Origin: Acidobacteriota bacterium
GTDB lineage: Bacteria > Acidobacteriota > Terriglobia > 2-12-FULL-54-10
Assembly (NCBI GenBank): GCA_016191085.1
Contig: JACPPJ010000015.1
Span: forward strand, 1 to 64,000
Reading direction: 5' to 3'
Length of the DNA: 64,000 bases
The notes under the pieces are model-generated. The model was not told the origin of the DNA and searched no databases. It saw only the letters and a program-made list of their open reading frames with translations. Below are positions 1,017 through 45,398 of this stretch, in pieces. Within the stretch, counting starts at the first letter, position 1. Every line of letters starts with the position of its first letter. The position numbers were made by a program, and so were the translations under genes.

Positions 1017-4011
1017 GGCGTACCCCTTCCTCTTGCTCCATTTGGTGCCGCACCAGCTTGAGATATCCAATGGAAGGCCGGACGTTGAGTTCCTCCAAGA
1101 CGTGATAGCGGCGGGAACTGCGCAGCAGTTGCGAGACGAAGCTGTTTGGATCGTTCTTGTCGCCAAAGGCGACGGCGCCGGCCGGACAGCTTTGCTGGCA
1201 AGCGGTCCGGATGGCGCCATCGCGTATCGGTTCCCCGTTTCGCTTCGCCTCGATTTTGGCTTCCTGAATTCGTTGTACACAAAAGCTGCATTTTTCCATC
1301 ACGCCGCGCGACCGCACGGTAACGTCGGGGTTTAACACCATGTTTTTGAGGTGATCCTCGTGCGGGTAATCAAACCAGTTGAAGCGGCGCACTTTGTAGG
1401 GGCAGTTGTTGGCGCAATAGCGCGTACCCACGCAGCGATTGTAGATCTGTTGATTCAGGCCCTCGGAGTCGTGCACTGTTGCCAATACCGGGCAGACGGT
1501 CTCGCACGGCGCGTTTTCGCAATGCTGGCAGAGCATCGGTTGATGGGCCACTTCCAGAGTCGTGTCTTCGCCAGCATAGTAACGATCAATGCGAATCCAA
1601 TGCATCACGCGCCGTCTCCGAACCTCGTCTTTCCCCACCACCGGAATGTTGTTTTCCACCTGACAAGCGATCACACAGGCGGAGCAGCCGGTGCAGGCAT
1701 TCAAGTCAATCACCATCGCCCAGCGGCGCCCGGAATAGACGTGATCAGGAGGCCAGAGATCTTCGTGCTCTTTCTCCTCGCGTTGTTTTCCGGAACTGAC
1801 ATCGTTGAGGTAGGCTTCGAGACTGGCTTGCTGGATCACCGGGCGGCGCTCCGTGCCCGGAGTAGCCAGATGCTGGGGAACCTCGATCGAGTGCTGAGTC
1901 TGCGCGAAAGCGAGCGCCAGGTGTTTTTCGGTACGGTAGACTTTCACCGCGCTGCGCCAGTATTCTACTCCCCCTTCCGTGAGCCGCAGGAAAGGACCCG
2001 CCCGCACTCCCACCCGGCCGTTTTCGCCGACGGTGGCCTTGGCATGCAGCCATCGTGGTCCCATTCTGGCGAAGCGTTCCGTGGCCTTGCTTCCGTATCC
2101 CAGAGCAATCGCCACCACCCGGTCGTGCTGGCCGGGCTGAACGACTACGGGCAGTTCGGTCGGGGTGCTTTCCCTTACAAGACCGCTTTCGAGGCGTATG
2201 ACATCTCCATCTTCGACCCGGAGTTCCGCGGCGGCTGCGGGTGAAAGACAGGCGTAGTTGTCCCAAGCCACCTTGCTGACAGGGTCCGGCAGCTCTTGCA
2301 ACCAGGGATTGTCAGCGTGCCTGCCGTCCAGGATGCCCACCTTGGGATACAGCACCAGCGCATATTCATCTTTTCCCAAAGCTCTCGCAGAAAGGATTGG
2401 GTGGACAGAGTCCGACGCAAACGGACGCACTGCCAACGCGGGTGTTCTTTCCAGTTCGACAAAACCGTCGTGGACGGCGTGATCCCAAAAAGCCTGGAAA
2501 GAACTCTCTTTGGCTTGCCGGGGGAAGATTTTGGCCTCCCAGTTTTCGCGGAGTGTGTCGTAGGCGGATTTCGGCATCCCCATCCACGCCGCCACGCTCT
2601 CCACAAGCGCGCGCGTGTTTCCGAGCGGTTGCATGCAAGGCTGGTAAATGCTGACGACGCCGTGCACGGATTCCTGATCACCCCACGATTCCAGATAGTG
2701 AGGAGTGGGACAAACATAATGAGCCACTTCTGTCGTCTCGCTGTGTTTCCCGTCGAGGCTTACCACCAGAGGAATCTGTCGAAGAAGGACGGCGAGCCGG
2801 TCGCCTTCTGGTAGGTCATAGACCGGATTTACGCTGGAAACGAAAAGAGCGGCAATCTTGCCTTCCTGCAGTTCCTCCAAGAAAGACCGTAGCTCTCGAT
2901 CATTGCCCCGGCGTTGGTTGGAGGGAAATCCCACGTCAATGGTGGCGCCGTAACTCTCCAGAAGATGATTGATGAAGTTGCAGAGCACCTGGGTAGCGAC
3001 GTCCTGGCTGCCGCATACAACCAAGCTCCTGCTCTTCGCTTGCCAAAGTTTCTGCGCAATCTTTTCCAGCGTCTGCCGCGGAACTGCCGGCGATTCGATC
3101 CGCTCGGTAGGAAATGGAACTTGGGCATAATGGGCGATGAGTGCGGCCAGATGAGTCACTACCAGCCCCAGTTCCTGCGGCGCAATGCGGATTCGTTCAT
3201 CTGCTTTGCTGCCGGTGAGAGACATGCGCGATTCGAATTGTGCGTGGTAGGAAAACCGCGGAGGGCGGGCCTCCAACCTCCTGGCCTCCTGATATCCGGC
3301 GGTGTATTCCACTGGGGAGATCCAGGTGCCCAGAAAATCGGCATCCAAACTGACTACTACTTCCGCCCGGTCAAAGCGGAAGCGGGGAAGCAGGCGAGCC
3401 CCGTTCGTTTGTTGGTAGGAGTCCAGGATGGCCGAACAGGAGAGGGGATCGTAAACAATGTGCCGGGCGTTTGGAAAGCGTCCGAGAAAAGCCTCCACGG
3501 TAGCGAGTGTGGTCAGGCCGGAGATGGAATCGCTGAGGAACCGCACGGCGCCGCCTTTTCTTCGGATCTGTTCCAGTTCCTCGATGATGTTCCGATCCAC
3601 CTCATCCCAAGTGGCTACCTTGCCTTCTTGCAGCGGCTGAAGGATACGCCGACTGTCGTACAAACCGAGAATCGAGGCCTGCCCCACAGCGCAGAGTCCG
3701 CCCCGCGAGAGAGGATGGTCAGGATTTCCCTCCAGCTTGATGGGACGGCCGTCGCGATTCTTGACCAGCAATCCGCAACCAGCGTTGCAGCCAGCGCAGG
3801 TGGAGGAGTAAAAATAAGCGCGCCCGGGAATGATCTCTTCCGGCTTGACCAGATACGGAATCGCTTTTTCCACCGGTGCTCTTTGGCAACCCGTCAAAGC
3901 GGCGCCCAGGAATGTGAAACCCGCGGCCTTCAAAAACTCCCGACGCGCAATTCCCTCGTCGGTCTCTGCCGGCGTGTTTTCCCAGGTGCGATTCGAATGG
4001 CGCGCAGCCAT
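1009..4011 (-). CDS. actB: Alternative complex III iron-sulfur subunit ActB (Tat-exported, molybdopterin-like domain plus ferredoxin-like domain)
   Basis: ActB fuses an inactive molybdopterin-oxidoreductase-like domain to a four-cluster ferredoxin-like domain and passes electrons from quinol to the cytochrome subunits on the periplasmic face. About 1000 residues from the ATG at 4011, chosen because AAGGAG lies just upstream and overlaps the actA stop; an earlier in-frame start at 4047 would run into actA. A Tat motif (ARREFLKAAGF, residues 22-32) is followed by a possible lipobox Cys (LTGC, residue 42). A CxxCxxxC motif lies near residue 70. Roughly residues 750-950 carry the cluster motifs CTGCSACVIAC, CQHCENAPCETVCP, CVGTRYCANNCP and a last spaced set ending CQQSCP. 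The third motif lacks one Cys, as expected for a [3Fe-4S] cluster. It lies 10 nt after actA and overlaps actC. Confidence 0.93.
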   Translation of the reverse strand: MAARHSNRTWENTPAETDEGIARREFLKAAGFTFLGAALTGCQRAPVEKAIPYLVKPEEIIPGRAYFYSSTCAGCNAGCGLLVKNRDGRPIKLEGNPDHPLSRGGLCAVGQASILGLYDSRRILQPLQEGKVATWDEVDRNIIEELEQIRRKGGAVRFLSDSISGLTTLATVEAFLGRFPNARHIVYDPLSCSAILDSYQQTNGARLLPRFRFDRAEVVVSLDADFLGTWISPVEYTAGYQEARRLEARPPRFSYHAQFESRMSLTGSKADERIRIAPQELGLVVTHLAALIAHYAQVPFPTERIESPAVPRQTLEKIAQKLWQAKSRSLVVCGSQDVATQVLCNFINHLLESYGATIDVGFPSNQRRGNDRELRSFLEELQEGKIAALFVSSVNPVYDLPEGDRLAVLLRQIPLVVSLDGKHSETTEVAHYVCPTPHYLESWGDQESVHGVVSIYQPCMQPLGNTRALVESVAAWMGMPKSAYDTLRENWEAKIFPRQAKESSFQAFWDHAVHDGFVELERTPALAVRPFASDSVHPILSARALGKDEYALVLYPKVGILDGRHADNPWLQELPDPVSKVAWDNYACLSPAAAAELRVEDGDVIRLESGLVRESTPTELPVVVQPGQHDRVVAIALGYGSKATERFARMGPRWLHAKATVGENGRVGVRAGPFLRLTEGGVEYWRSAVKVYRTEKHLALAFAQTQHSIEVPQHLATPGTERRPVIQQASLEAYLNDVSSGKQREEKEHEDLWPPDHVYSGRRWAMVIDLNACTGCSACVIACQVENNIPVVGKDEVRRRRVMHWIRIDRYYAGEDTTLEVAHQPMLCQHCENAPCETVCPVLATVHDSEGLNQQIYNRCVGTRYCANNCPYKVRRFNWFDYPHEDHLKNMVLNPDVTVRSRGVMEKCSFCVQRIQEAKIEAKRNGEPIRDGAIRTACQQSCPAGAVAFGDKNDPNSFVSQLLRSSRRYHVLEELNVRPSIGYLKLVRHQMEQEEGVRHG

Positions 4012-34979: not shown

Positions 34980-36419
34980 TTATGAGTTAGCGCCTTTCAA
35001 CACTTCCAGCGCGCGACGGAGTCTGGCGCGGCAAAGGTCGCGGCCGAGGATCTCCATGGAATCGAACAGCGGAGTGGAGGTAGGACTCCCGGTAATAGCT
35101 ACATAGAACGGTCGAAGGAAATCGCGCAGTTTGCTTTGAAACTCGTCACAGAGTTGCTTGAACAACGCTCCAATGGCTTGTTTGTCCCAGCAGCCCAGCG
35201 CATCGAACTCTTCGAGCGCTCTCGCGAATGCTTTCCTGCTCACTTCAACCGGCACCTTCTTGTCTTCAAAATCAGCCGCCTTGACGGGCAGCTCTCCAGA
35301 GAAGAAGAACGCGGTCAGAGGACCGAGGTCGCTCAGGATCGATACGCGCTGCTTAGTGAGGGCGGCAATCGGCATCAGATATTCGCGGTTCAACGCCCAC
35401 TTCTGAACGCGCTCCGCGTACTGCTCATCGCTGAGGTCTTCGCGCACCCAGCGCCCGTTTAGCCATGAGAGTTTCTTAATGTCAAAAACCGGGCCGCCCA
35501 GGGAGATGTGCGCCAAGTCGAACTTCTCCACCATCTCCGCCAAAGAAAGTTTCTCTTCTCCCTCCGGCATGGACCAGGCCATCAGACCCAGGTAGTTCAG
35601 CATTGCTTCGGGAAGAAAACCCATTCGCTGGTAATAAACCAGGCTAGTGGGATTTTTCCGCTTGCTCAATTTACTCTTGTCCGGATTGCGGAGCAGCGGA
35701 AGATGGCAGAAGACAGGCTTCTCCCACCCGAAGTAGTCGTACAGGAGAAGATGCTTTGGAGTCGAGTTGATCCACTCTTCCCCGCGAATGACGTGAGTAA
35801 TGCCCATCAGGTGGTCGTCCACAACGTTGGCCAGGTGATAAGTGGGCATTCCGTCCTGCTTCAGCAGCACCTGCATGTCCACCATGTCCCACCCGATCTC
35901 AATCCTGCCGCGCAGCAGATCGGTCATCTCACAGACTCCCTGCTCCGGAACTTTCATGCGGATGACATACGGAACATTGTCTCGCAGCAGTTGCTCTACT
36001 TCCGCTTGTGAAAGCCCAAGGCATCGCCCATCGTATCCCGGACGGAGCCCTGCCGGCTGTTGTGCTTTGCGCAATTCGGCCAAACGCTCCGACGTACAGA
36101 AGCAGCGAAAGGCATGGCCTTCCTCCAACAGCCGCGCCACATGTTGGCGATAGATTTCGCCCCGCAGACTCTGCTGATAGGGACCGTGAGGTCCGCCCAC
36201 GTCAGGCCCTTCATCCCAATCGAGTCCCAGCCACCGCAGGGAGTTTAAGATCGCCTCCTGCGATTGGGGATTACTCCGGGCCATGTCCGTGTCCTCGATC
36301 CGCAGGATAAATTGGCCGCCTGATTTTCGCGCAAAACAGTAGTTGAAAAGGGCTACGTAAGCGGTGCCGACGTGAGGGTCCCCGGTGGGAGAGGGCGCGA
36401 TGCGGGTGCGAACAGTCAA
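34980..36419 (-). CDS. gltX: Glutamyl-tRNA synthetase
   Basis: Charges tRNA-Glu with glutamate. 479 residues, near the usual 470-490. Class I motifs: [16 protein letters not shown] (HIGH region, residues 6-21), FILRIEDTD, and KLSKRKNP (KMSKS-like) near residue 240. The start is TTG at 36419, preceded by GAAGGAG at about 8 nt; the partial second copy of this region at 40.8-41.0 kb keeps the same TTG and ribosome binding site. The C-terminal anticodon-binding half is present, so this is the functional copy. Downstream (minus-strand) spacer to the Spy-like gene is 168 nt. Confidence 0.96.
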   Translation of the reverse strand: MTVRTRIAPSPTGDPHVGTAYVALFNYCFARKSGGQFILRIEDTDMARSNPQSQEAILNSLRWLGLDWDEGPDVGGPHGPYQQSLRGEIYRQHVARLLEEGHAFRCFCTSERLAELRKAQQPAGLRPGYDGRCLGLSQAEVEQLLRDNVPYVIRMKVPEQGVCEMTDLLRGRIEIGWDMVDMQVLLKQDGMPTYHLANVVDDHLMGITHVIRGEEWINSTPKHLLLYDYFGWEKPVFCHLPLLRNPDKSKLSKRKNPTSLVYYQRMGFLPEAMLNYLGLMAWSMPEGEEKLSLAEMVEKFDLAHISLGGPVFDIKKLSWLNGRWVREDLSDEQYAERVQKWALNREYLMPIAALTKQRVSILSDLGPLTAFFFSGELPVKAADFEDKKVPVEVSRKAFARALEEFDALGCWDKQAIGALFKQLCDEFQSKLRDFLRPFYVAITGSPTSTPLFDSMEILGRDLCRARLRRALEVLKGANS

Positions 36420-36605
36420 ACGGTTGGCTCCTTCGGATGAAAGGTCCTTGCCGGAATGCCGGGGAGGCAGAAAGCAAACAGCAATTATAGCCTATCGCGC
36501 AAAGTATCCTGGAGAGGGTAGCAGGCGATTGCTTCCTGTTTTTCCTTGACTGCGAATTCTTGAAGGGGTGCAGAGGTCTTCTATTGTGCTAAAATCGGCG
36601 GCGTT

Positions 36606-37169
36606 ATGGAGCGTTTTTACCTTTATGCTGCTGTTCTCGGTGTTTTGGCCTTTATATTAGCCATACCGATGGCTGTTGCCGCAAACCTGCTAACACCAAA
36701 GGTCCAGCGATGGTGGGCTAGCTCTTCTCGAAGTCGTGCATTGAAGCGGCTAAGCCGTTTGGAGAAGCAAATTTCCGAATTGCAAGCAATGTCAGAATGG
36801 CATCTCATGGCTCGGATCATGCATGCCGGCGTCGGGTTTTTTTTCGCGCTTTTTATGATTCTTCTCGCCTTATTGTATTTTCTCTATTTAAACGATCTAT
36901 ATCTATTTGCTCATAACGGTTTTAAATTGCAAAGTGATATCACCGAGACTGACATTGTTCGTAAAGCTGAACGACTCATCTACATCATTTCTACATCCAG
37001 TTTCATACAAGGTCTAGAGTTTCACCGCTTATCAGTTGGCTTAAGACAACTCTCTCCAACACATAGAAACAAGCGGCTTGAGGATTTGAAAACAGATCGT
37101 GATGTCCTAACGCAAAGGCTGGGAGTTGTGGATAATTCTCTTCCACGACTTACCGCTCCTCATTGTTAA
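36606..37169 (+). CDS. Orphan two-helix membrane protein in the first gltX/glnS junction
   Basis: 187 residues. An N-terminal membrane helix (residues 4-28) is followed by a basic coiled-coil-like segment ([19 protein letters not shown]), then a second helix ([18 protein letters not shown], residues 77-95), then a helical cytoplasmic or periplasmic tail. The gene is A+T richer than its neighbours and faces opposite to gltX. I do not recognise the family. Its place between gltX and a glnS 3' fragment parallels the nuclease/NTPase gene at 41.2-43.6 kb, so both may be cargo of one insertion slot. Confidence 0.6.
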
Positions 37170-37340
37170 ACTCTGGTTTTTTCAAATTCGAGCGCGCGGG
37201 ATCCGGCAGGATCAGGATCATCTTCGCATCGACGCCGAGAAGCAGCGCGCTTTCGTAGAAGTCGTTGACTACCACGGCGTATGTCTACAAATGAGCCATC
37301 ATACCGTGCTGTATTGCGTGACGACGTGGCGCCGCCTATC

Positions 37341-37470
37341 CCTTCTGTTTGCGCTCGAATCTTCGCCCAGGTATCCCGTAATGTCGCTGTGCGGTTGAAG
37401 ACTAGCTTCTCGGGTTTCGAGTCGCGATCAACACACAAGTAACCGAGCCGCTCAAACTGATACAGAGAAT
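37341..37470 (-). pseudogene. Duplicated 3' fragment of glnS
   Basis: About 130 nt closely match the real glnS 3' region at 43670-43800 (by eye about 90 percent). The translated part reads [28 protein letters not shown] and LRDTWAKI, versus the same GlnRS C-terminal words in the intact gene. An extra A near 37358 shifts the frame relative to glnS. The rest of glnS is absent. The stretch 37170-37511 holds nothing else that I can name. Confidence 0.85.
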
Positions 37471-37511
37471 CGACCGGAACACCGGGCAGATACAGGTCGC
37501 TGCCATCGGGC

Positions 37512-38693
37512 TCACATGAAATTTTTCGTGTGATAAGCGGAAAGAGTCTCGGCGTCCTGCGCGCCGAATCCAAGGGATTGCAAGCGTTCCCTACGGGAGC
37601 GGTCCATATCCCGGTGCAGCTCCGCGACGCAGGATGCGCCGTGGCGGATCTGCGAAGGCTCAATGCCGCCCCCGGAGTAGATCACGAGGGCATCATGCAC
37701 GTACGGACTCAGCCCGGTGACGGAGGCAAGGACATTGTTCCTCCGCTCGACGGCCGCCGCCAATGAGGACCGGCGTTCCGGTTCGAGTCCCAAGATGTAC
37801 CGAATATGTTCGACGCCGAAAGCCACGTGCCGCGCCTCATCGCGATGAGCAAGGCGCGCCAGCATCGCCGTCACCGCATCCGGGGCGTGACGTTCCAGAA
37901 ATGGCAGTAAAGTCAAAAATGTCCCTTCTCCCATTACGCAAAGCAGGAAAACCGCAGAGGTGAAATCCGCTTCCTCCATCAGACTCTTGAGCGAAAGCTG
38001 TCCACTGGCCGCGGTCGTTCCGAGTCCCTGCCCTCCCGCTTCGGCCCGTTTTATAAAAGCCTCTGCGTGCCGAGCCTCGTCGGCGATCTGCATCGCCAAC
38101 ACTTGCACGACTTCCCTATAATGGGGATGAATACGAGCAAGAAAACGGGCAGGGATATAGAGTGCGGCGAATTCATTTTCCGTCAGAAAGGTCATGATCT
38201 GACAAACCGCACCTTCCACCTCGGAAGAGAGCTTGGGAAGCTGCTGCCACGGAATGTCCTTCGCCGCTGACCACTGGTTCGCCACCGCCTGGCGATGGAT
38301 GCTGTTGAGTTCCTGCGCCCACACGTCCTTCTTCCTGGAAAGGGGAAATGAAAGGCTAGGGCCGCCGGCCTCGAGCATCGCACCGCGCGGCGCCAAAGCC
38401 CAGGTCGGCTCCGCTACCTCCGCCACTTCCGGGCCAGAACTGAGCAACGGGACCGCGACCGCGCCGCGTTCGATTATGTAAATCCCGACTCCGTTGCCAC
38501 CTCCGTGATATGGGTTGCCCGACTGACGGCACCAGGAGCGGATGTGCAGTTCGAGGTCGGACGAGTCGCCGTGGACCTCCAGCAACTCTCCCTCGGCCAT
38601 GCGGGCGAGACTGCGCCGCAGCAATACCGGCACCCCCTGATGAAACGCCAGGTCTTCGAGGTCGAGCCGCAGCTTTGGAATGATTTCAGGCAT
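37512..38693 (-). CDS. TusA-like domain fused to a ferritin-like di-iron protein
   Basis: 393 residues. The first 65 residues resemble a TusA/SirA-type sulfur-carrier fold ([20 protein letters not shown], then [12 protein letters not shown]); the Cys is in the second half rather than the usual CPxP site. Residues about 165-310 form a ferritin-like four-helix bundle with two Glu...ExxH sets: ENEFAALY...DEARHAEAF and GEGTFLTLL...[10 protein letters not shown], consistent with a di-iron centre. It overlaps the PhnD-like gene stop by 8 nt, so it is the last gene of a three-gene operon. An oxygenase or oxidase role is inferred; the substrate is unknown. Confidence 0.7.
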
Positions 38694-39522
38694 AAAACTT
38701 AAACCGGCTTACTGCATTTTGCAGTTGCTGATACCCGCTGGTGCGAGCAGGCAGCCAGCGATTGAGGCCTTCCAGTTCCATAAAGGTTCGCACGCTGGGA
38801 TCTTCAAACGACATCGCGAGGAGGACTTCAACGAAGGGACGGCTGCGCTTCTCGGAAACTCCGGTGAGCGCGGTGAAATTGCAATGATCGTAGGGAGGCG
38901 TGGTCGCCAGGATCTTCGTTGTGCCGGGATCGAGTGTGCCTTCGTTCACGAACACTGTGAAGTTACTGTCCAGCACGCAGGCCGCGTCCGCCTGACCGGA
39001 AGCCAGTGCTCGTGCCGCGTCGCGCTCTCCGCCGACATGATCCCCATGTTTGCCGAACATCACTTCGTGATATAGGACCTCGAAGTCCTTGCCGGAAACA
39101 AGCCCCGCGTCGGTCAGCATCGCCAGCGGGATCAGTGTCGCCTGGGGAGAATCTGATGCTCCAACAGCGATCGTTTTGCCTTTCAGGTCCAACACCGAAG
39201 CAATATTGGAATTCTGCCGTACCAGAATGTGGGTGGTGAGGTCGCGATCGCTGTCGCGCATCGCCAAAGCCTGGCACTTTCCCTTAGTTGCGAGATCCGT
39301 TCTTACCCAGGCCAATGGCGAGTTCCAGGCAATGTCAATCTCTCCGGAGAGCATCGCGTCCACCTGAGCATCATAGTGGGAGTAGAGAACATAATCGATT
39401 TCGACGCCTCTCTTGTGGAAGTAGTCCTTGAATCCTTCCCAGATTGTGACGACTTTGGGATCGTAGGCAACCGCTCCGATTCGCAGAGGGCGGTCCGAGG
39501 ATTTCTTGTCAGATTTTGGCAT
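38686..39522 (-). CDS. PhnD/SsuA-like substrate-binding protein without a signal peptide
   Basis: 278 residues from the ATG at 39522. The periplasmic-binding fold of the PhnD family is evident: RIGAVAYDPKVVTIWEGFKD, SGEIDIAWNSPLAWV, LKGKTIAVGASDSPQATLIP and ALASGQADAACVLDSN. The N terminus (MPKSDKKSSDRPLRIG) has no signal peptide or lipobox, and the only longer in-frame start does not create one. There is no ABC permease or ATPase gene nearby. It may therefore bind a phosphonate-, sulfonate- or oxyanion-like ligand in the cytoplasm for the adjacent enzymes. Confidence 0.75.
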   Translation of the reverse strand: MPKSDKKSSDRPLRIGAVAYDPKVVTIWEGFKDYFHKRGVEIDYVLYSHYDAQVDAMLSGEIDIAWNSPLAWVRTDLATKGKCQALAMRDSDRDLTTHILVRQNSNIASVLDLKGKTIAVGASDSPQATLIPLAMLTDAGLVSGKDFEVLYHEVMFGKHGDHVGGERDAARALASGQADAACVLDSNFTVFVNEGTLDPGTTKILATTPPYDHCNFTALTGVSEKRSRPFVEVLLAMSFEDPSVRTFMELEGLNRWLPARTSGYQQLQNAVSRFKFYA

Positions 39523-39563
39523 AGGACAATCCGTATTTCTTTTTTTTACTAATAGCACTGCCG

Positions 39564-40712
39564 TCAGAAGAGTGGCATACCGCAGGTGGATTTGCCGATA
39601 AAATCGTACAGCGCATCAGTGACAGGCGCCATTACAGTGGCCGCGCGGCTATCCCGGAAAAAGCGTTCCACGGCGACGTCTTTGCGAAAAGCCGCCCCGC
39701 CGCAAACCCTCATAGCCAAATCCAGGACTTCGAGGGAAGTTTCGGCGCCCGCGACCTTGGATTCCAGCACACGCAGCATCACATCATCCCGCTGCTGCTC
39801 GACGGCTTCGACGGCATCCAGTAGAAAACCGCGAACGAGATCTATTTTCACACGACTCCTAGCAATATGCCCGCGCACCTGCGGCAGGTCGGCAATTTTC
39901 GAGCTATCGTACGAGTACCTGGAATTCGTCACATGTTGGACGGCCCGGGCCAAGGCACCTTCCATCATACCCAAGGAAACCGCGCAGCTTTGCACATTGA
40001 AATAAGGCAGAATGACTCCCATCATTACATCGAACCCTTTTCCGTCCTCACCTAAACGGCTCGACTCGGAAACCAGGACATCCCGCGCCGTGATCGGAGC
40101 AGAACCATTCCCGCGCAATCCCAGGCCGTCGAACGGCGCTGAGATCGTAAGTCCCTTCGCGTCCGAAGGAACCGCCCAGATGGTGCTCAGCCCTTGGGCG
40201 GCCACAGGCTTGCTAGACCAAACGTATAAGTCACACTTTCCAGCCGCCGTGATCAATTGCTTGGAGCCGTTCAGCCGGATGCCGTTTCCGTTCCTCTCCG
40301 CCGTGCCTACCGGTACCCAGAAGTGGCTGCGTGACCCGGTTTCGGAGAAAGCCAGCGTGGCCAACTGACCTCTGGTGGCTACAGCTTTCCTTAGATCTTC
40401 TGTGCCAAAATGTTCGATCGCGGTGGTCGCGCAATTATGCATGATCGTAATCATGGCTGTGGAGGGGCAATCGCGAGCGATCCGCTCCGCCACGGCAACA
40501 GCAGAACGAATTCCCTGACCCTGTCCTCCCATCTCCTTAGCACTGAGAAGGCCAAGCAGCCCGGCGTTTCGCATGGCGTCTATATTTTCTCTCGGAAAGC
40601 GGCCCTCTTTGTCGGTCGTTGCGGCCCGTGGCTCGATCACTTCCCGTGCGATCCTATCCACCGCAGCCAGAATCCGCAATCCTTCTTCATTCAGTTTCCA
40701 CGAGTTGCTCAT
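39564..40712 (-). CDS. Acyl-CoA dehydrogenase-family flavoprotein lacking the usual catalytic Glu
   Basis: 382 residues with the acyl-CoA dehydrogenase fold: N-terminal helical domain (GLLSAKEMGGQGQGIRSAV), middle beta domain (LAFSETGSRSHFWVPVGTA), C-terminal helices (FRKDVAVERFFRDSRAATVM). Where dehydrogenases end with the YEGT-type segment supplying the base, this protein has VMAPVTDALYDF, so the Glu is missing at that place. Members without it include flavin-dependent monooxygenases of the DszC/SfnB type. First gene of the operon with the PhnD-like and TusA-ferritin genes; together they suggest oxidation of a sulfur-, phosphorus- or similar heteroatom compound. Confidence 0.75.
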   Translation of the reverse strand: MSNSWKLNEEGLRILAAVDRIAREVIEPRAATTDKEGRFPRENIDAMRNAGLLGLLSAKEMGGQGQGIRSAVAVAERIARDCPSTAMITIMHNCATTAIEHFGTEDLRKAVATRGQLATLAFSETGSRSHFWVPVGTAERNGNGIRLNGSKQLITAAGKCDLYVWSSKPVAAQGLSTIWAVPSDAKGLTISAPFDGLGLRGNGSAPITARDVLVSESSRLGEDGKGFDVMMGVILPYFNVQSCAVSLGMMEGALARAVQHVTNSRYSYDSSKIADLPQVRGHIARSRVKIDLVRGFLLDAVEAVEQQRDDVMLRVLESKVAGAETSLEVLDLAMRVCGGAAFRKDVAVERFFRDSRAATVMAPVTDALYDFIGKSTCGMPLF

Positions 40713-40756: not shown

Positions 40757-41000
<244 letters not shown>

Positions 41001-41150
41001 GAGTAAGTCCTTTGGGTGATTCGACGCTGAGGCGAGTCAACGGCCAGTACACGATTCCCTCACGAAACGGCGCGAGTCGCCTGTCGATTTTTACGTCAGG
41101 ATGAGCCATACTTCGAAGGATTGTCGAAAAGAATTGGTGGGAAATCTCAA

Positions 41151-43616
41151 ATGTTAATCGATGAGAATTCGGCACTGTCCACGGAGAGCGATGTTGAGCA
41201 AAAGATCCTCTTCCCACTCCTGACCGGAGACGGGTATCTGGGTATACCTGTAGCCAACGTCCATACCAAAGAGTATCTTCCTCCCACTCCCCTCGATAAA
41301 GCCGCAGGCAAGACGATTGGCTACTATCCGGATTACTCAATTTGGTTTCATGGTCTGCCAGTAATGATAATTGAAGCCAAATCTCCTGATGTTGATCCGC
41401 AGATAGGTTACCGCGAAGCTAGTCTGTATGCTCGGCACCTGAACCAGAAGTTTCCCGCCGGAGTCAACCCGTGTGCTCGCATCATCTCCTCAAACGGCAA
41501 CAGATTACTGTACGGACCTTGGGACGCGGCACCAGAGATTGAGTTGTCATTGTCTGATCTCAATGTGGGCACTGCCGGGCTGGAGAATTTACAGTCGCGT
41601 TGCTTCGGCCACATACTCGATAAATCTGCAATAGAAATCTCCCAGAGGCTCCAGCTCATAAACATCGTTATCCCCTATGACCTACTGGGAGGCCAAGCTG
41701 TGCTCAACGCCAAGCGGCCTCTAAACACGTTCGCAGCCGACTTGTCTCCGGTCCTTCGGCGTTACTTCTCATCCACCCCGCAGGAAAACGTTCACGAGAT
41801 CGCCGAAAAAGCATACATTTCCTCAAACGAAGTTACCGAATACGATCGTGTTTTGGAGTCGTTGCTCAAGGAGCGGCTCTCACTTCGGCAGACCGCGATC
41901 GTCAAACCGCTGGAGCCCAGCCGACGGGAAGAACCCAACGTGGCGCACGCAATCGCCTCCTTTGATGAGCAACGCCCCATGACAGGACAGCTTCAAATCG
42001 TCCAGGGCCCAGTCGGCGCGGGTAAGTCTTTGTTCGCGCGGCGATATTGCGATGTTTTGCAAGATCCCGACCAAGCTAAACGGACGCGTTGGGCATTCAT
42101 AGACTTCAATACTGGTGCGATAAGCAATACGCTTAGTCCCGAACGGTGGTTATACGAATCGTTCATGCAGGCATTCCAGAGTGAGAATCCGTCACTGGAC
42201 GTGTACTCTGCTAGCGCTCAGCGAGGTATCTTTTCTAGAAACCTTCAGAGGCGGCGCAGCGTGTACGAAGAACTTGAGCGAGTATCTCCCGAATCGGCGG
42301 CCGTGCAGCGGGCAACCGACCTTGCCAAATGGCAAGACGACCCGAAAGAGTTCACGCAAGGGCTCGCTACATATATTTTGGGGAGCCGTCACGAAGTACT
42401 CGTCGTAGTGATGGACAACGTGGACCGACTTGATCTCAACGGACAGCTAACGGCGTTCAATATCGCCCTTTCTTTCATGGCACTGACGAAGTGCTTTGTG
42501 ATCCTCCAAATGCGAGACGAGACATACGAGCGGTTCAAGGATAAGCCGCCTCTAGATACCTACCGCTCGGGCATAACATTTCACATTTCGCCGCCTCGAT
42601 TCATAGACGTCGTCAAGCGCCGACTTGAACTGAGTCTGGAGTATTTGACGGCCCATGCCGCCGAGGTACAACGATATACCTTGGAATCCGGGATGCGGAT
42701 CAGTTATCCGAAATCGGCGCTCGGTTGGTTTCTAGGACAACTATACTTGGAGCTGTTCGAACGCCGCCACAACATCTCTCGCGTCCTCGAGGCGCTTGCC
42801 GGATGGGACGTGCGCCGAGCACTGGAAATGTTCGTGAGCGTTATTACCTCGGGACACCTCAGTGAAGAATCGATCACATCGAGTGTCATGGGTGCGAAAA
42901 GTATTCCCATCAGAGAGCACACTGTTCTTAAAATTTTGATGCGCACGGATTACCGTTTTGCGAGCGATCAAAGTGGCTACATCATCAACGTGTTTGGCTT
43001 CGACAAAGAATGGGAGAGGCCGGACAATTTTCTTCTTGTCGAGGCACTGTACTATTTAACGGCGAACCGTAAGAAGCGAGGAGAAATCGGCCTGGAAGGG
43101 TACTTTACCTGCCGGCATGTTGCGAATGCTCTGCAACAGTTTAGCTACGTGCCGGAGGATGTTCTCGCTGCTCTCAATCATCTGCTCCGGAAACGGCTTA
43201 TCGTTGCGGACCACATGAATCATACGTCCGTTGCGTTTGATGACTCAGTTCGCATTCTTGCGGCCGGATTCATGCATTTACGGGTTTTGACCGAGCGACT
43301 TGAGTACCTGTTCGGTATTTTGCCTACAGTGCCGATCGCTGACCGACACGTTGCGCAACAGATCGCGCGGGTTCTAGAGAAAGAGAAACTTACCGGAGAG
43401 GTTTTGGCAACGGAGAAGATCCGCGCAGTTCGACATTTTCTTCGCTATTTATGGTCACTACATGCCTCCGTCAGAGGGCGCAGTGTCCACGCTGCGGATG
43501 AGTACAGCGGCGCGGATTATGTCCTGAAAAAGATTGCGGCGTGCTTGGCTAACTTTTATATCAAAGGCATCAAAGGCATAGCTTCGCCGGATGAGGAGGA
43601 CGTGCTTGATCTTTGA
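41151..43616 (+). CDS. Predicted PD-(D/E)XK nuclease fused to a P-loop (STAND/AAA-like) NTPase; candidate defence protein
   Basis: 821 residues from the ATG at 41151; a TTG at 41121 is possible. Residues 10-125 resemble the N-terminal nuclease domain of type I restriction HsdR: Glu16 in ESDVEQKILFPLL, Asp61 in GYYPDYSIW, Glu75-x-Lys77 in MIIEAKSPD, and a Gln84/Tyr93 pair. A P-loop NTPase follows: Walker A GPVGAGKS (residues 286-293), Walker B VVVMDNVDRLD (418-428) and a sensor-like segment ILQMRDETYERF. The C-terminal third is helical with a winged-helix-like part (VLAALNHLLRKRLIVADHM). There are no helicase motifs and no hsdM/hsdS genes. The layout resembles nuclease-STAND (Avs-like) defence proteins; function is inferred. 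Confidence 0.72.
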   Translation: MLIDENSALSTESDVEQKILFPLLTGDGYLGIPVANVHTKEYLPPTPLDKAAGKTIGYYPDYSIWFHGLPVMIIEAKSPDVDPQIGYREASLYARHLNQKFPAGVNPCARIISSNGNRLLYGPWDAAPEIELSLSDLNVGTAGLENLQSRCFGHILDKSAIEISQRLQLINIVIPYDLLGGQAVLNAKRPLNTFAADLSPVLRRYFSSTPQENVHEIAEKAYISSNEVTEYDRVLESLLKERLSLRQTAIVKPLEPSRREEPNVAHAIASFDEQRPMTGQLQIVQGPVGAGKSLFARRYCDVLQDPDQAKRTRWAFIDFNTGAISNTLSPERWLYESFMQAFQSENPSLDVYSASAQRGIFSRNLQRRRSVYEELERVSPESAAVQRATDLAKWQDDPKEFTQGLATYILGSRHEVLVVVMDNVDRLDLNGQLTAFNIALSFMALTKCFVILQMRDETYERFKDKPPLDTYRSGITFHISPPRFIDVVKRRLELSLEYLTAHAAEVQRYTLESGMRISYPKSALGWFLGQLYLELFERRHNISRVLEALAGWDVRRALEMFVSVITSGHLSEESITSSVMGAKSIPIREHTVLKILMRTDYRFASDQSGYIINVFGFDKEWERPDNFLLVEALYYLTANRKKRGEIGLEGYFTCRHVANALQQFSYVPEDVLAALNHLLRKRLIVADHMNHTSVAFDDSVRILAAGFMHLRVLTERLEYLFGILPTVPIADRHVAQQIARVLEKEKLTGEVLATEKIRAVRHFLRYLWSLHASVRGRSVHAADEYSGADYVLKKIAACLANFYIKGIKGIASPDEEDVLDL

Positions 43617-43631
43617 TGAACGAGTCCGGCC

Positions 43632-45398
43632 TCATGTACAATAACGCAAACCCTTACTTCCCCCCTGCCCCTTCTGTTTCCGCTCGATCTTCGCCCAGGT
43701 ATCCCGTAATGTCGCTGTGCGGTTGAAGACGAGCTTCCCGGGTTTCGAATCGGGATCAACACAGAAGTAACCGAGCCGCTCAAACTGGTACAGAGAGCCG
43801 GCCGCAGCACCAGCGAGACACGGTTCTATCTTGCAGCGCTCGACGATCTCCAGCGAATTTGGGTTCAGATTGATTGTGAAGTCCTCACCCTCTTGGACCT
43901 CATTCGGGTCTTCCTTGGTGAACAAGGTATCGTAGAGCCGCGCCTCAGCCTCCAGCGCGTGCGGTGCGGAAACCCAGTGGATGGTGGACTTCACCTTGCG
44001 TCCATCGGGGGCATTGCCGCCGCGTGTCTCCGGATCGTAAGTGCAGCGCAACTCCACAATGTTTCCGCTGGCGTCCTTGATTACGTCCCTGCAAGTCATC
44101 ATATAGGCATACCGCAAGCGCACCTCACGCCCTGGCGAAAGCCGGTAAAACCCCTTGGGGGGATCCTCCCGGAAGTCGTCGCGCTCGATATACAATACGC
44201 GCGAAAATGGCACCTTCCGTGTGCCCGCGTTGGCGTCTTCCGGGTTGTTCACTGCCTCCATCTCTTCCACGAGATCCTCCGGATAGTTTTCGATGACCAC
44301 CCGTAGAGGACGAAGGACCGCCATGACGCGAAGCGCACGCTTATTCAGGTCTTCACGGACACAGTGCTCCAGCAACGCGAGTTCGATGACGCCATTTGTT
44401 TTCGACACACCGATTCGGCTGCAGAATTCGCGGAATGCCTCCGACGTATAACCCCGCCGTCGTGCACCCTTGAGAGTGGGCATGCGGGGATCGTCCCAAC
44501 CGCGCACGTGTCCGTCGCGAACGAGCTGGAGCAACTTCCGCTTGCTCAGCAGCGTGTAGGTCAGGTTCAGCCGGTCAAACTCGATCTGCTGCGGATGATG
44601 GATTCCGAGTTGCTCGATGAACCAATCATAGAGCGGGCGATGATCCTCAAATTCCAACGTGCAGATGGAGTGTGTGATGCCTTCGATCGAGTCGCTCTGC
44701 CCGTGAGTGTAGTCGTAGGTTGGATAGATGCACCATTTGTTTCCGCTCCGAGGGTGCTCGGCATGCAAAATTCGATAGAGAATCGGGTCGCGCATATTCA
44801 GGTTCGGTGACGCCATATCGATCTTGGCCCGGAGCGTACGCGAACCGTCCGGGAAATCGCCGGCGCGCATCCGTTCGAACAAGGCCAGGTTCTCTTCCAC
44901 ACCGCGTCCACGGAAGGGACTTTCCCGGCCCGGTTGGCTTAACGTGCCACGATACTCCCGCACCTGGTCGGCAGTCAGGTCGCACACATAAGCCTTGCCC
45001 GCCTGGATAAGCTGGACAGCCCAAGCATACAATTGCTCGAAGTAGTCGGACGCATAGAAAAGACGGTCTTCCCAATCGGCTCCCAACCAACGAACATCTT
45101 CGATGATCGACTCGATGTATTCCATTTCCTCTTTCAGTGGATTGGTGTCGTCAAATCGGAGATTGAATTTGCCTCCAAATTCCTTCGCCAGGCCAAAATT
45201 GAGATGGATTGATTTCGCATGACCGTAGTGCAGATATCCATTCGGTTCAGGGGGAAACCTGGTATGCACGCGGCCGCCATTTTTATTACTCTCGATATCC
45301 CGAAGAATGATGTCGCGAATGAAATGTGATTTCGGCCGCGGCGAATCACCAGCGCGGGGAGTGGATCCAGAAATTTTTTGGGGTGTAGTCATGCTCAT
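43632..45398 (-). CDS. glnS: Glutaminyl-tRNA synthetase
   Basis: Charges tRNA-Gln directly. 588 residues, a little longer than E. coli GlnRS. Class I motifs: [17 protein letters not shown] (HIGH region), [10 protein letters not shown], and LLSKRKLLQ (KMSKS-like). The C-terminal beta-barrels for the anticodon are present ([20 protein letters not shown]). The start pair MSM at 45398 lacks a strong ribosome site. The 3' end overlaps a copy of the sequence duplicated at 37.3-37.5 kb, and its last 12 codons ([13 protein letters not shown]) abut the nuclease/NTPase gene, which converges with it 16 nt away. Confidence 0.95.

Follow-up and report, generated by a model that had tools for sequence, protein, structure and literature searches.

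The 64,000-nucleotide stretch of Acidobacteriota DNA analysed here (the window) carries an intact gene for a protein that combines a predicted restriction-type nuclease with a P-loop NTPase (Table 1), and which is probably a stand-alone, horizontally moving antiphage protein whose NTPase would sense phage and release the nuclease. This defence reading follows from the location of its relatives, which occur in distantly related bacteria and are carried there by prophages, plasmids and islands of restriction systems. The family concerned, phrog_14719, is unnamed in PADLOC and NCBIfam and very probably represents a type of defence protein not described before.

Table 1. Predicted features of the nuclease-NTPase gene and its surroundings, in window coordinates
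Feature	Position	Strand	Basis or remark
CDS, nuclease-NTPase protein, 821 aa, phrog_14719 family clade A	41151..43616	+	
Putative PD-(D/E)XK (HsdR/RecB-type) nuclease domain, about residues 1-135	41151..41555	+	AlphaFold, Foldseek, HMMER alignment
Catalytic motif D61 ... E75-x-K77 ... E89xxxY93	41331..41429	+	alignment, conservation
P-loop NTPase core, about residues 262-480	41934..42590	+	fold search
Walker A GPVGAGKS, residues 286-293	42006..42029	+	sequence, conservation
Walker B, ending D422-N423-x-D425	42396..42425	+	conservation
Helical lid, about residues 484-600, with conserved R555 (DVRRAL, sensor-2-like)	42600..42950	+	model, conservation
Winged-helix-like domain, about residues 628-712	43032..43286	+	AlphaFold model; conserved in clades A and B
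Helical C terminus; S1/RRM/cold-shock domain added beyond it in sister clades	43287..43613	+	model, family comparison
gltX 5' end, truncated second copy, left edge of cargo slot	40757..41000	-	matches 36255-36446
Intact glnS 3' end, right edge of cargo slot	43661..43826	-	truncated copy at 37332-37498
187-aa ORF, alternative cargo of second junction copy	36606..37169	+	GC3 0.40

The reading frame begins with ATG and is free of internal stops; an in-frame TTG at 41121 offers an alternative start that would add 10 aa. The host is a soil bacterium, represented by an 88%-complete assembly of 3.47 Mb. It shares its class with Acidobacteria gp2 AA93, since locus L084, from a genome of that class (G513), and L002 are one and the same DNA, which makes the host an acidobacterium. 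The residues singled out in the original prediction (E16, D61, E75-x-K77 and the Walker motifs GPVGAGKS and VVVMDNVDRLD) all lie where they had been placed. In an alignment of 19 homologues with 23-55% identity to the window protein, every homologue covering these positions is identical there or differs by the replacement of S293 with T, a degree of conservation beyond chance. The same homologues served as the alignment for an AlphaFold model of the whole protein (mean pLDDT 81).

The N-terminal domain is predicted, from sequence and model, to be an HsdR/RecB-type PD-(D/E)XK nuclease, as had been proposed. In its AlphaFold model (pLDDT 86 for residues 1-192), residues 12-123 follow the alpha-beta-beta-beta-alpha-beta order of PD-(D/E)XK nucleases, and the predicted structure thus has the topology that this assignment demands. 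A HMMER profile of the domain aligns D61, E75, K77, E89 and Y93 with D151, E165, K167, Q179 and Y183 of EcoR124I HsdR at identical spacing, and also aligns the domain to 3h1t. Gln179-Tyr183 is the QxxxY motif of EcoR124I HsdR (PMC4454674); D61, E75-x-K77 and E89xxxY93, corresponding to the D ... ExK and (Q/E)xxxY elements of this nuclease type, are kept wherever the 19 homologues cover them. When the isolated domain was searched with Foldseek, the best 22 PDB matches were all restriction endonucleases or proteins of the same fold. Their E-values are individually weak (0.02-0.4, best 0.024, none significant), but the matches agree with one another and with the sequence profile. In the protein alone, the Pfam model PF04313 (HSDR_N) matches residues 59-122 with E=1.3e-4 and 22.3 bits, against a cut-off of 25.1; in a six-frame search of the genome, the same stretch reaches 26 bits with its frame neighbours, above the cut-off, and is the only HSDR_N match in this 88%-complete assembly. 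Several homologues of clade B (described below) clearly pass the HSDR_N cut-off.

A P-loop NTPase with Walker A and B motifs had likewise been foreseen and is present, but its kinship needs qualification, as its nearest relatives by fold include ORC/Cdc6 as well as STAND/NLR proteins. Cdc6/ORC (4.7e-6) and the NRC3 complex (2.2e-5) head the fold matches, followed by plant NLR resistosomes, CED-4 and Apaf-1; TnsC of Tn7 is also among them. Within the NTPase region, R455 after a core strand and R555 in the lid motif DVRRAL are conserved. STAND proteins carry an arginine at sensor 1, and the DVRRAL motif recalls sensor 2 of Cdc6/ORC. On the strength of the fold matches to both groups and of R455 and R555, the modelled NTPase is assigned to the STAND/ORC-Cdc6 clade, with STAND used here as the name of the clade and not in the narrow sense. 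The order of domains, an NTPase core of this clade followed by helical and winged-helix domains, is that of STAND proteins. The long helical C terminus of the original prediction does contain helices, but part of it is modelled as lid and winged helix. A Pfam search of the window protein found no repeat family of the sort that forms C-terminal sensors in STAND proteins (TPR, WD40, LRR etc.), and in the model the chain closes with a winged helix and helices, without sensor repeats. The suggested likeness to nuclease-STAND proteins holds for the succession of effector and STAND/ORC-clade NTPase, but does not extend to sensor repeats or to a PADLOC match with Avs.

The only whole-protein family match of the window protein is to phrog_14719 (E 9.6e-64), a PHROGs family annotated as "unknown function"; the match falls into two stretches, the best of which covers residues 192-771. 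PADLOC (2023) and NCBIfam models do not match the protein, the Avs models not even at E<=1, and a PDB sequence search with the single protein returned chance matches only. The literature searched yielded neither a paper that names phrog_14719 or describes the family nor a functional assay of one of its members. The suspicion of a new subgroup is thus borne out insofar as the defence models applied leave the family unnamed. The conserved catalytic and nucleotide-binding residues and the context of the homologues make the protein a probable antiphage candidate.

Members of clades B, C and D match phrog_14719 at 8e-83 to 3e-201. Proteins of clade A, including that of the window, mostly have 820-840 aa and no extra domain. 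Clade B, a well-supported sister on the tree, comprises proteins of about 890-930 aa whose C terminus carries an S1 domain (an RRM in a single member). In the more distant groups C and D, the N terminus is HSDR_N_2-like, and D adds C-terminal cold-shock domains. All of these add-ons follow the core at one and the same position (S1, E down to 1.6e-12; RRM, 2.3e-8; CSD, 1.8e-11). The RNA recognition motif (PF00076, 2.3e-8) is found in a bacterial nuclease-NTPase protein encoded at positions 1075-3741 (-) of locus L028. Host phyla show hardly any clustering on the tree, where the phylum label changes 7 times, compared with 8.0 times on average after shuffling; this indicates horizontal transfer. 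Full-length copies occur in 5 of the 299 genomes of the class and in none of the six other genomes of the same bacterial family; the protein family is rare and horizontally spread. Close relatives of the window protein were not found in the phage collection, but IMG/VR contigs do contain relatives, and the members in Klebsiella and E. coli are remote, with about 20% identity to the window protein.

Homologues are not confined to a housekeeping context, and many reside on prophages, plasmids and restriction-modification islands. One stands between a tyrosine integrase and a type I restriction-modification operon (L003); another, in L078, belongs to a type I operon and begins 41 bp after HsdR. 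In L007 (at about 17 bp) and in L011, the gene adjoins a serine recombinase; an integrase or integrase fragment is its direct neighbour in L027 and L077, and plasmid replication or partition genes (Rep/ParA) lie near it in L011, L012 and L080. Elsewhere, the gene adjoins a GNAT/TacA-type toxin-antitoxin pair and a tRNA-Gly (L005), a truncated copy is surrounded by a tRNA-Gly, an integrase and a GmrSD-family gene (L010), or the direct neighbour is a DUF4258 gene (L095); neighbours in L004 and L008 are unremarkable. Both tRNA-Gly genes have the anticodon ccc, one just upstream of the gene in Asticcacaulis (L005, 4834-4907), the other upstream of the integrase and truncated gene in Rhizobium (L010, 5749-5822), and they are possibly a shared attachment site. 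On IMG/VR contigs, one setting is directly behind a CI-like repressor, in prophages that also encode RecT and RecE; other copies have tail genes for neighbours, lie close to the Zot-like gene of a filamentous phage, or immediately follow an integrase. Rac-like prophages of E. coli carry a group C member (WP_045170235.1) as oppositely oriented cargo in 8 of 5426 genomes. A search for the corresponding empty site yielded no clean example: both flanks matched in thousands of genomes, with no site covering 80% of the joined query.

In a genome of the same class, a broken copy of the nuclease-NTPase gene (L096, 4734-5377, +) directly follows a methylase-like gene and a BsuBI/PstI-type restriction endonuclease. 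A 715-aa neighbour protein in L006 (5703-7850, -) has a RelE/ParE toxin-like N terminus fused to a longer domain. In an apparent Mu-type prophage of a related genome (L097, 4891-8608, -), a TIR-domain gene lies beside a gene for a protein of 906 aa. This protein starts with a nuclease homologous to that of the window protein (33%, E 4.5e-13), apparently fused to an N6 methylase and specificity region.

Among 127 neighbour proteins from 18 loci, resolvases (4), phage integrases (4), ParA (3) and several type I restriction-modification models were matched, and no partner gene, transposases included, recurs. The lack of a recurring neighbour suggests that the gene acts alone or with host factors. 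At the window locus itself, none of the 50 other ORFs of at least 120 aa matches PADLOC at 1e-8, a comparison that serves as contrast only, between sets that differ in phylum composition. Accordingly, restriction-modification partners are absent from the window; together with the lack of any helicase family in the protein, this agrees with the predicted absence of methylase, specificity and helicase components. Defence genes are seen, along with mobile elements, around homologues, but the window locus is not a defence island, and no defence or mobile-element neighbours occur within the window. Promoter and terminator scans remained at chance level.

The gene was further said to sit, oppositely oriented, in a duplicated gltX/glnS junction. 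Duplication and orientation are confirmed, with the refinement that the second junction copy holds a different gene, the 187-aa ORF. The duplicated parts are the 5' part of gltX (36255-36446 = 40757-40948, 95% over 192 nt) and the 3' part of glnS (37359-37498 = 43687-43826, 88%). Read along the minus strand, glnS is followed by the nuclease gene on the opposite strand, the gltX 5' fragment, a three-gene operon, the glnS 3' fragment, the 187-aa ORF on the opposite strand, and intact gltX. The 187-aa ORF is an orphan cargo gene: nothing in Pfam matches it above cut-off, PADLOC gives no match either, and 40 relative genomes lack a counterpart; it contains hydrophobic stretches and is unrelated to the nuclease gene. 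Bracketed by the truncated genes, the operon (37512-40712, -) encodes an Rv1679-like acyl-CoA dehydrogenase, an Rv1680-like binding protein of the phosphonate type (PhnD-like) and a di-iron protein with weak DUF455 and R2-like matches; a moeA-like gene lies in the vicinity. In a comparison of 26 window genes, third-position GC is lowest in the two cargo genes (0.58 for the nuclease gene, 0.40 for the ORF; others 0.60-0.75). This, and the different cargo of the two junction copies, suggest that foreign genes were inserted at a single site and that two versions of the locus then underwent an exchange that was left unresolved. Misassembly of two strains in the draft may also have produced the duplication, yet the copies differ by 5-12%. 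The idea of a class-wide hotspot at the glnS/gltX junction was dropped: the genome with the closest glnS (G399) has no adjacent gltX, and two genomes of another family (G187, G289) have a gltX-like gene upstream of glnS instead.

A plausible course of action can be sketched for the protein. In the resting state, the NTPase, lid and winged helix would keep the HsdR-like nuclease off. A phage component might then meet the C-terminal half; in the sister clades, the S1, RRM or cold-shock domains suggest nucleic-acid sensing, and the trigger there is probably nucleic acid. ATP binding could lead to assembly, presumably into an oligomer, whereupon the PD-(D/E)XK domains would cut what is presumably DNA, and the phage or the infected cell would be stopped. 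A bolder and decidedly tentative generalization is that phrog_14719 may be an undescribed class of immune proteins encoded by single genes. In these, an AAA+ switch, ORC/Cdc6-like and not classical STAND, would gate the HsdR-type nuclease, and sensing would be set by a swappable C-terminal nucleic-acid slot (none, S1, RRM or cold shock). If this slot does decide sensing, bacteria would change the trigger of an NLR-like protein by swapping one small domain. In any case, an uncharacterised phage protein family moves from "unknown function" to a testable hypothesis, and a concrete, unnamed defence candidate is provided, with intact catalytic motifs and relatives inside E. coli and Klebsiella prophages.

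Other functions are conceivable for the same architecture. A type IV-like restriction enzyme, in which the winged helix and helical region read a feature of incoming DNA, such as a modified base, and the NTPase licenses cleavage without cell death, is rather unlikely: it would suit an HsdR-type nuclease with a winged helix and no methylase partner, as well as the members in or next to type I operons (L003, L078) or near a GmrSD-family gene (L010), but no known modified-base reader domain was found, the NTPase belongs with the STAND/ORC clade and not with helicases or McrB, and the RNA-binding modules of the sister clades are ill-suited to reading base modifications. These same modules, always at one place after the core, could instead recognise phage RNA or ribosomes, so that the protein would be an RNA-targeted or translation-sensing nuclease whose module was lost or replaced in clade A. 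CoCoNuT systems likewise pair cold-shock folds with a restriction-type NTPase and a predicted RNA target (PMC11090510). Such a role is nevertheless doubtful, as the window protein has no such C-terminal domain, PD-(D/E)XK enzymes usually cut DNA, and S1 and CSD folds can also bind ssDNA. Maintenance, replication or transposition of a mobile element by an ORC/Cdc6-like or TnsC-like ATPase with a nuclease, to which the fold matches to Cdc6/ORC and TnsC and the frequent plasmid and prophage locations would point, is quite improbable, given that carrier elements have their own Rep/ParA genes (L011, L012, L080), that no transposase recurs among the 127 neighbours, for which reason a Tn7-like reading was dropped, and that the gene is single-gene cargo in unrelated element types.

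Compared to known systems, the antiphage protein proposed here shares with type I HsdR the catalytic spacing of the nuclease, including (Q/E)xxxY, but lacks SF2 helicase domains and HsdM/HsdS (Pfam for the protein, PADLOC for the window), and its NTPase belongs to another clade. The type IV systems CoCoNuT and McrBC similarly combine a restriction-type NTPase and nuclease with cold-shock/OB folds (PMC11090510), but are multi-gene and based on the McrB GTPase, and no sequence match with the window family was seen. A link to the KAP P-loop NTPases is visible in the clade C member at L015, which passes the PF07693 cut-off (28.7 against 20), whereas the window protein has no Pfam match to this family. 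In Avs proteins, the effector is N-terminal, the NTPase central and the sensor C-terminal (PMC12931631), and nuclease-STAND relatives have been found in defence hotspots of P4-like satellites (PMC9122126). Unlike Avs/AVAST, the window protein has an HsdR-type nuclease, a lid with winged helix and an ORC-like R555, but neither C-terminal sensor repeats nor a match to the curated Avs profiles. Alike are the N-terminal effector, a nuclease in several Avs types, the central STAND-clade NTPase, the single gene and the mobile context. The best reading is therefore that the protein, although the tests applied do not place it within Avs, would act like nuclease-STAND proteins of the Avs type.
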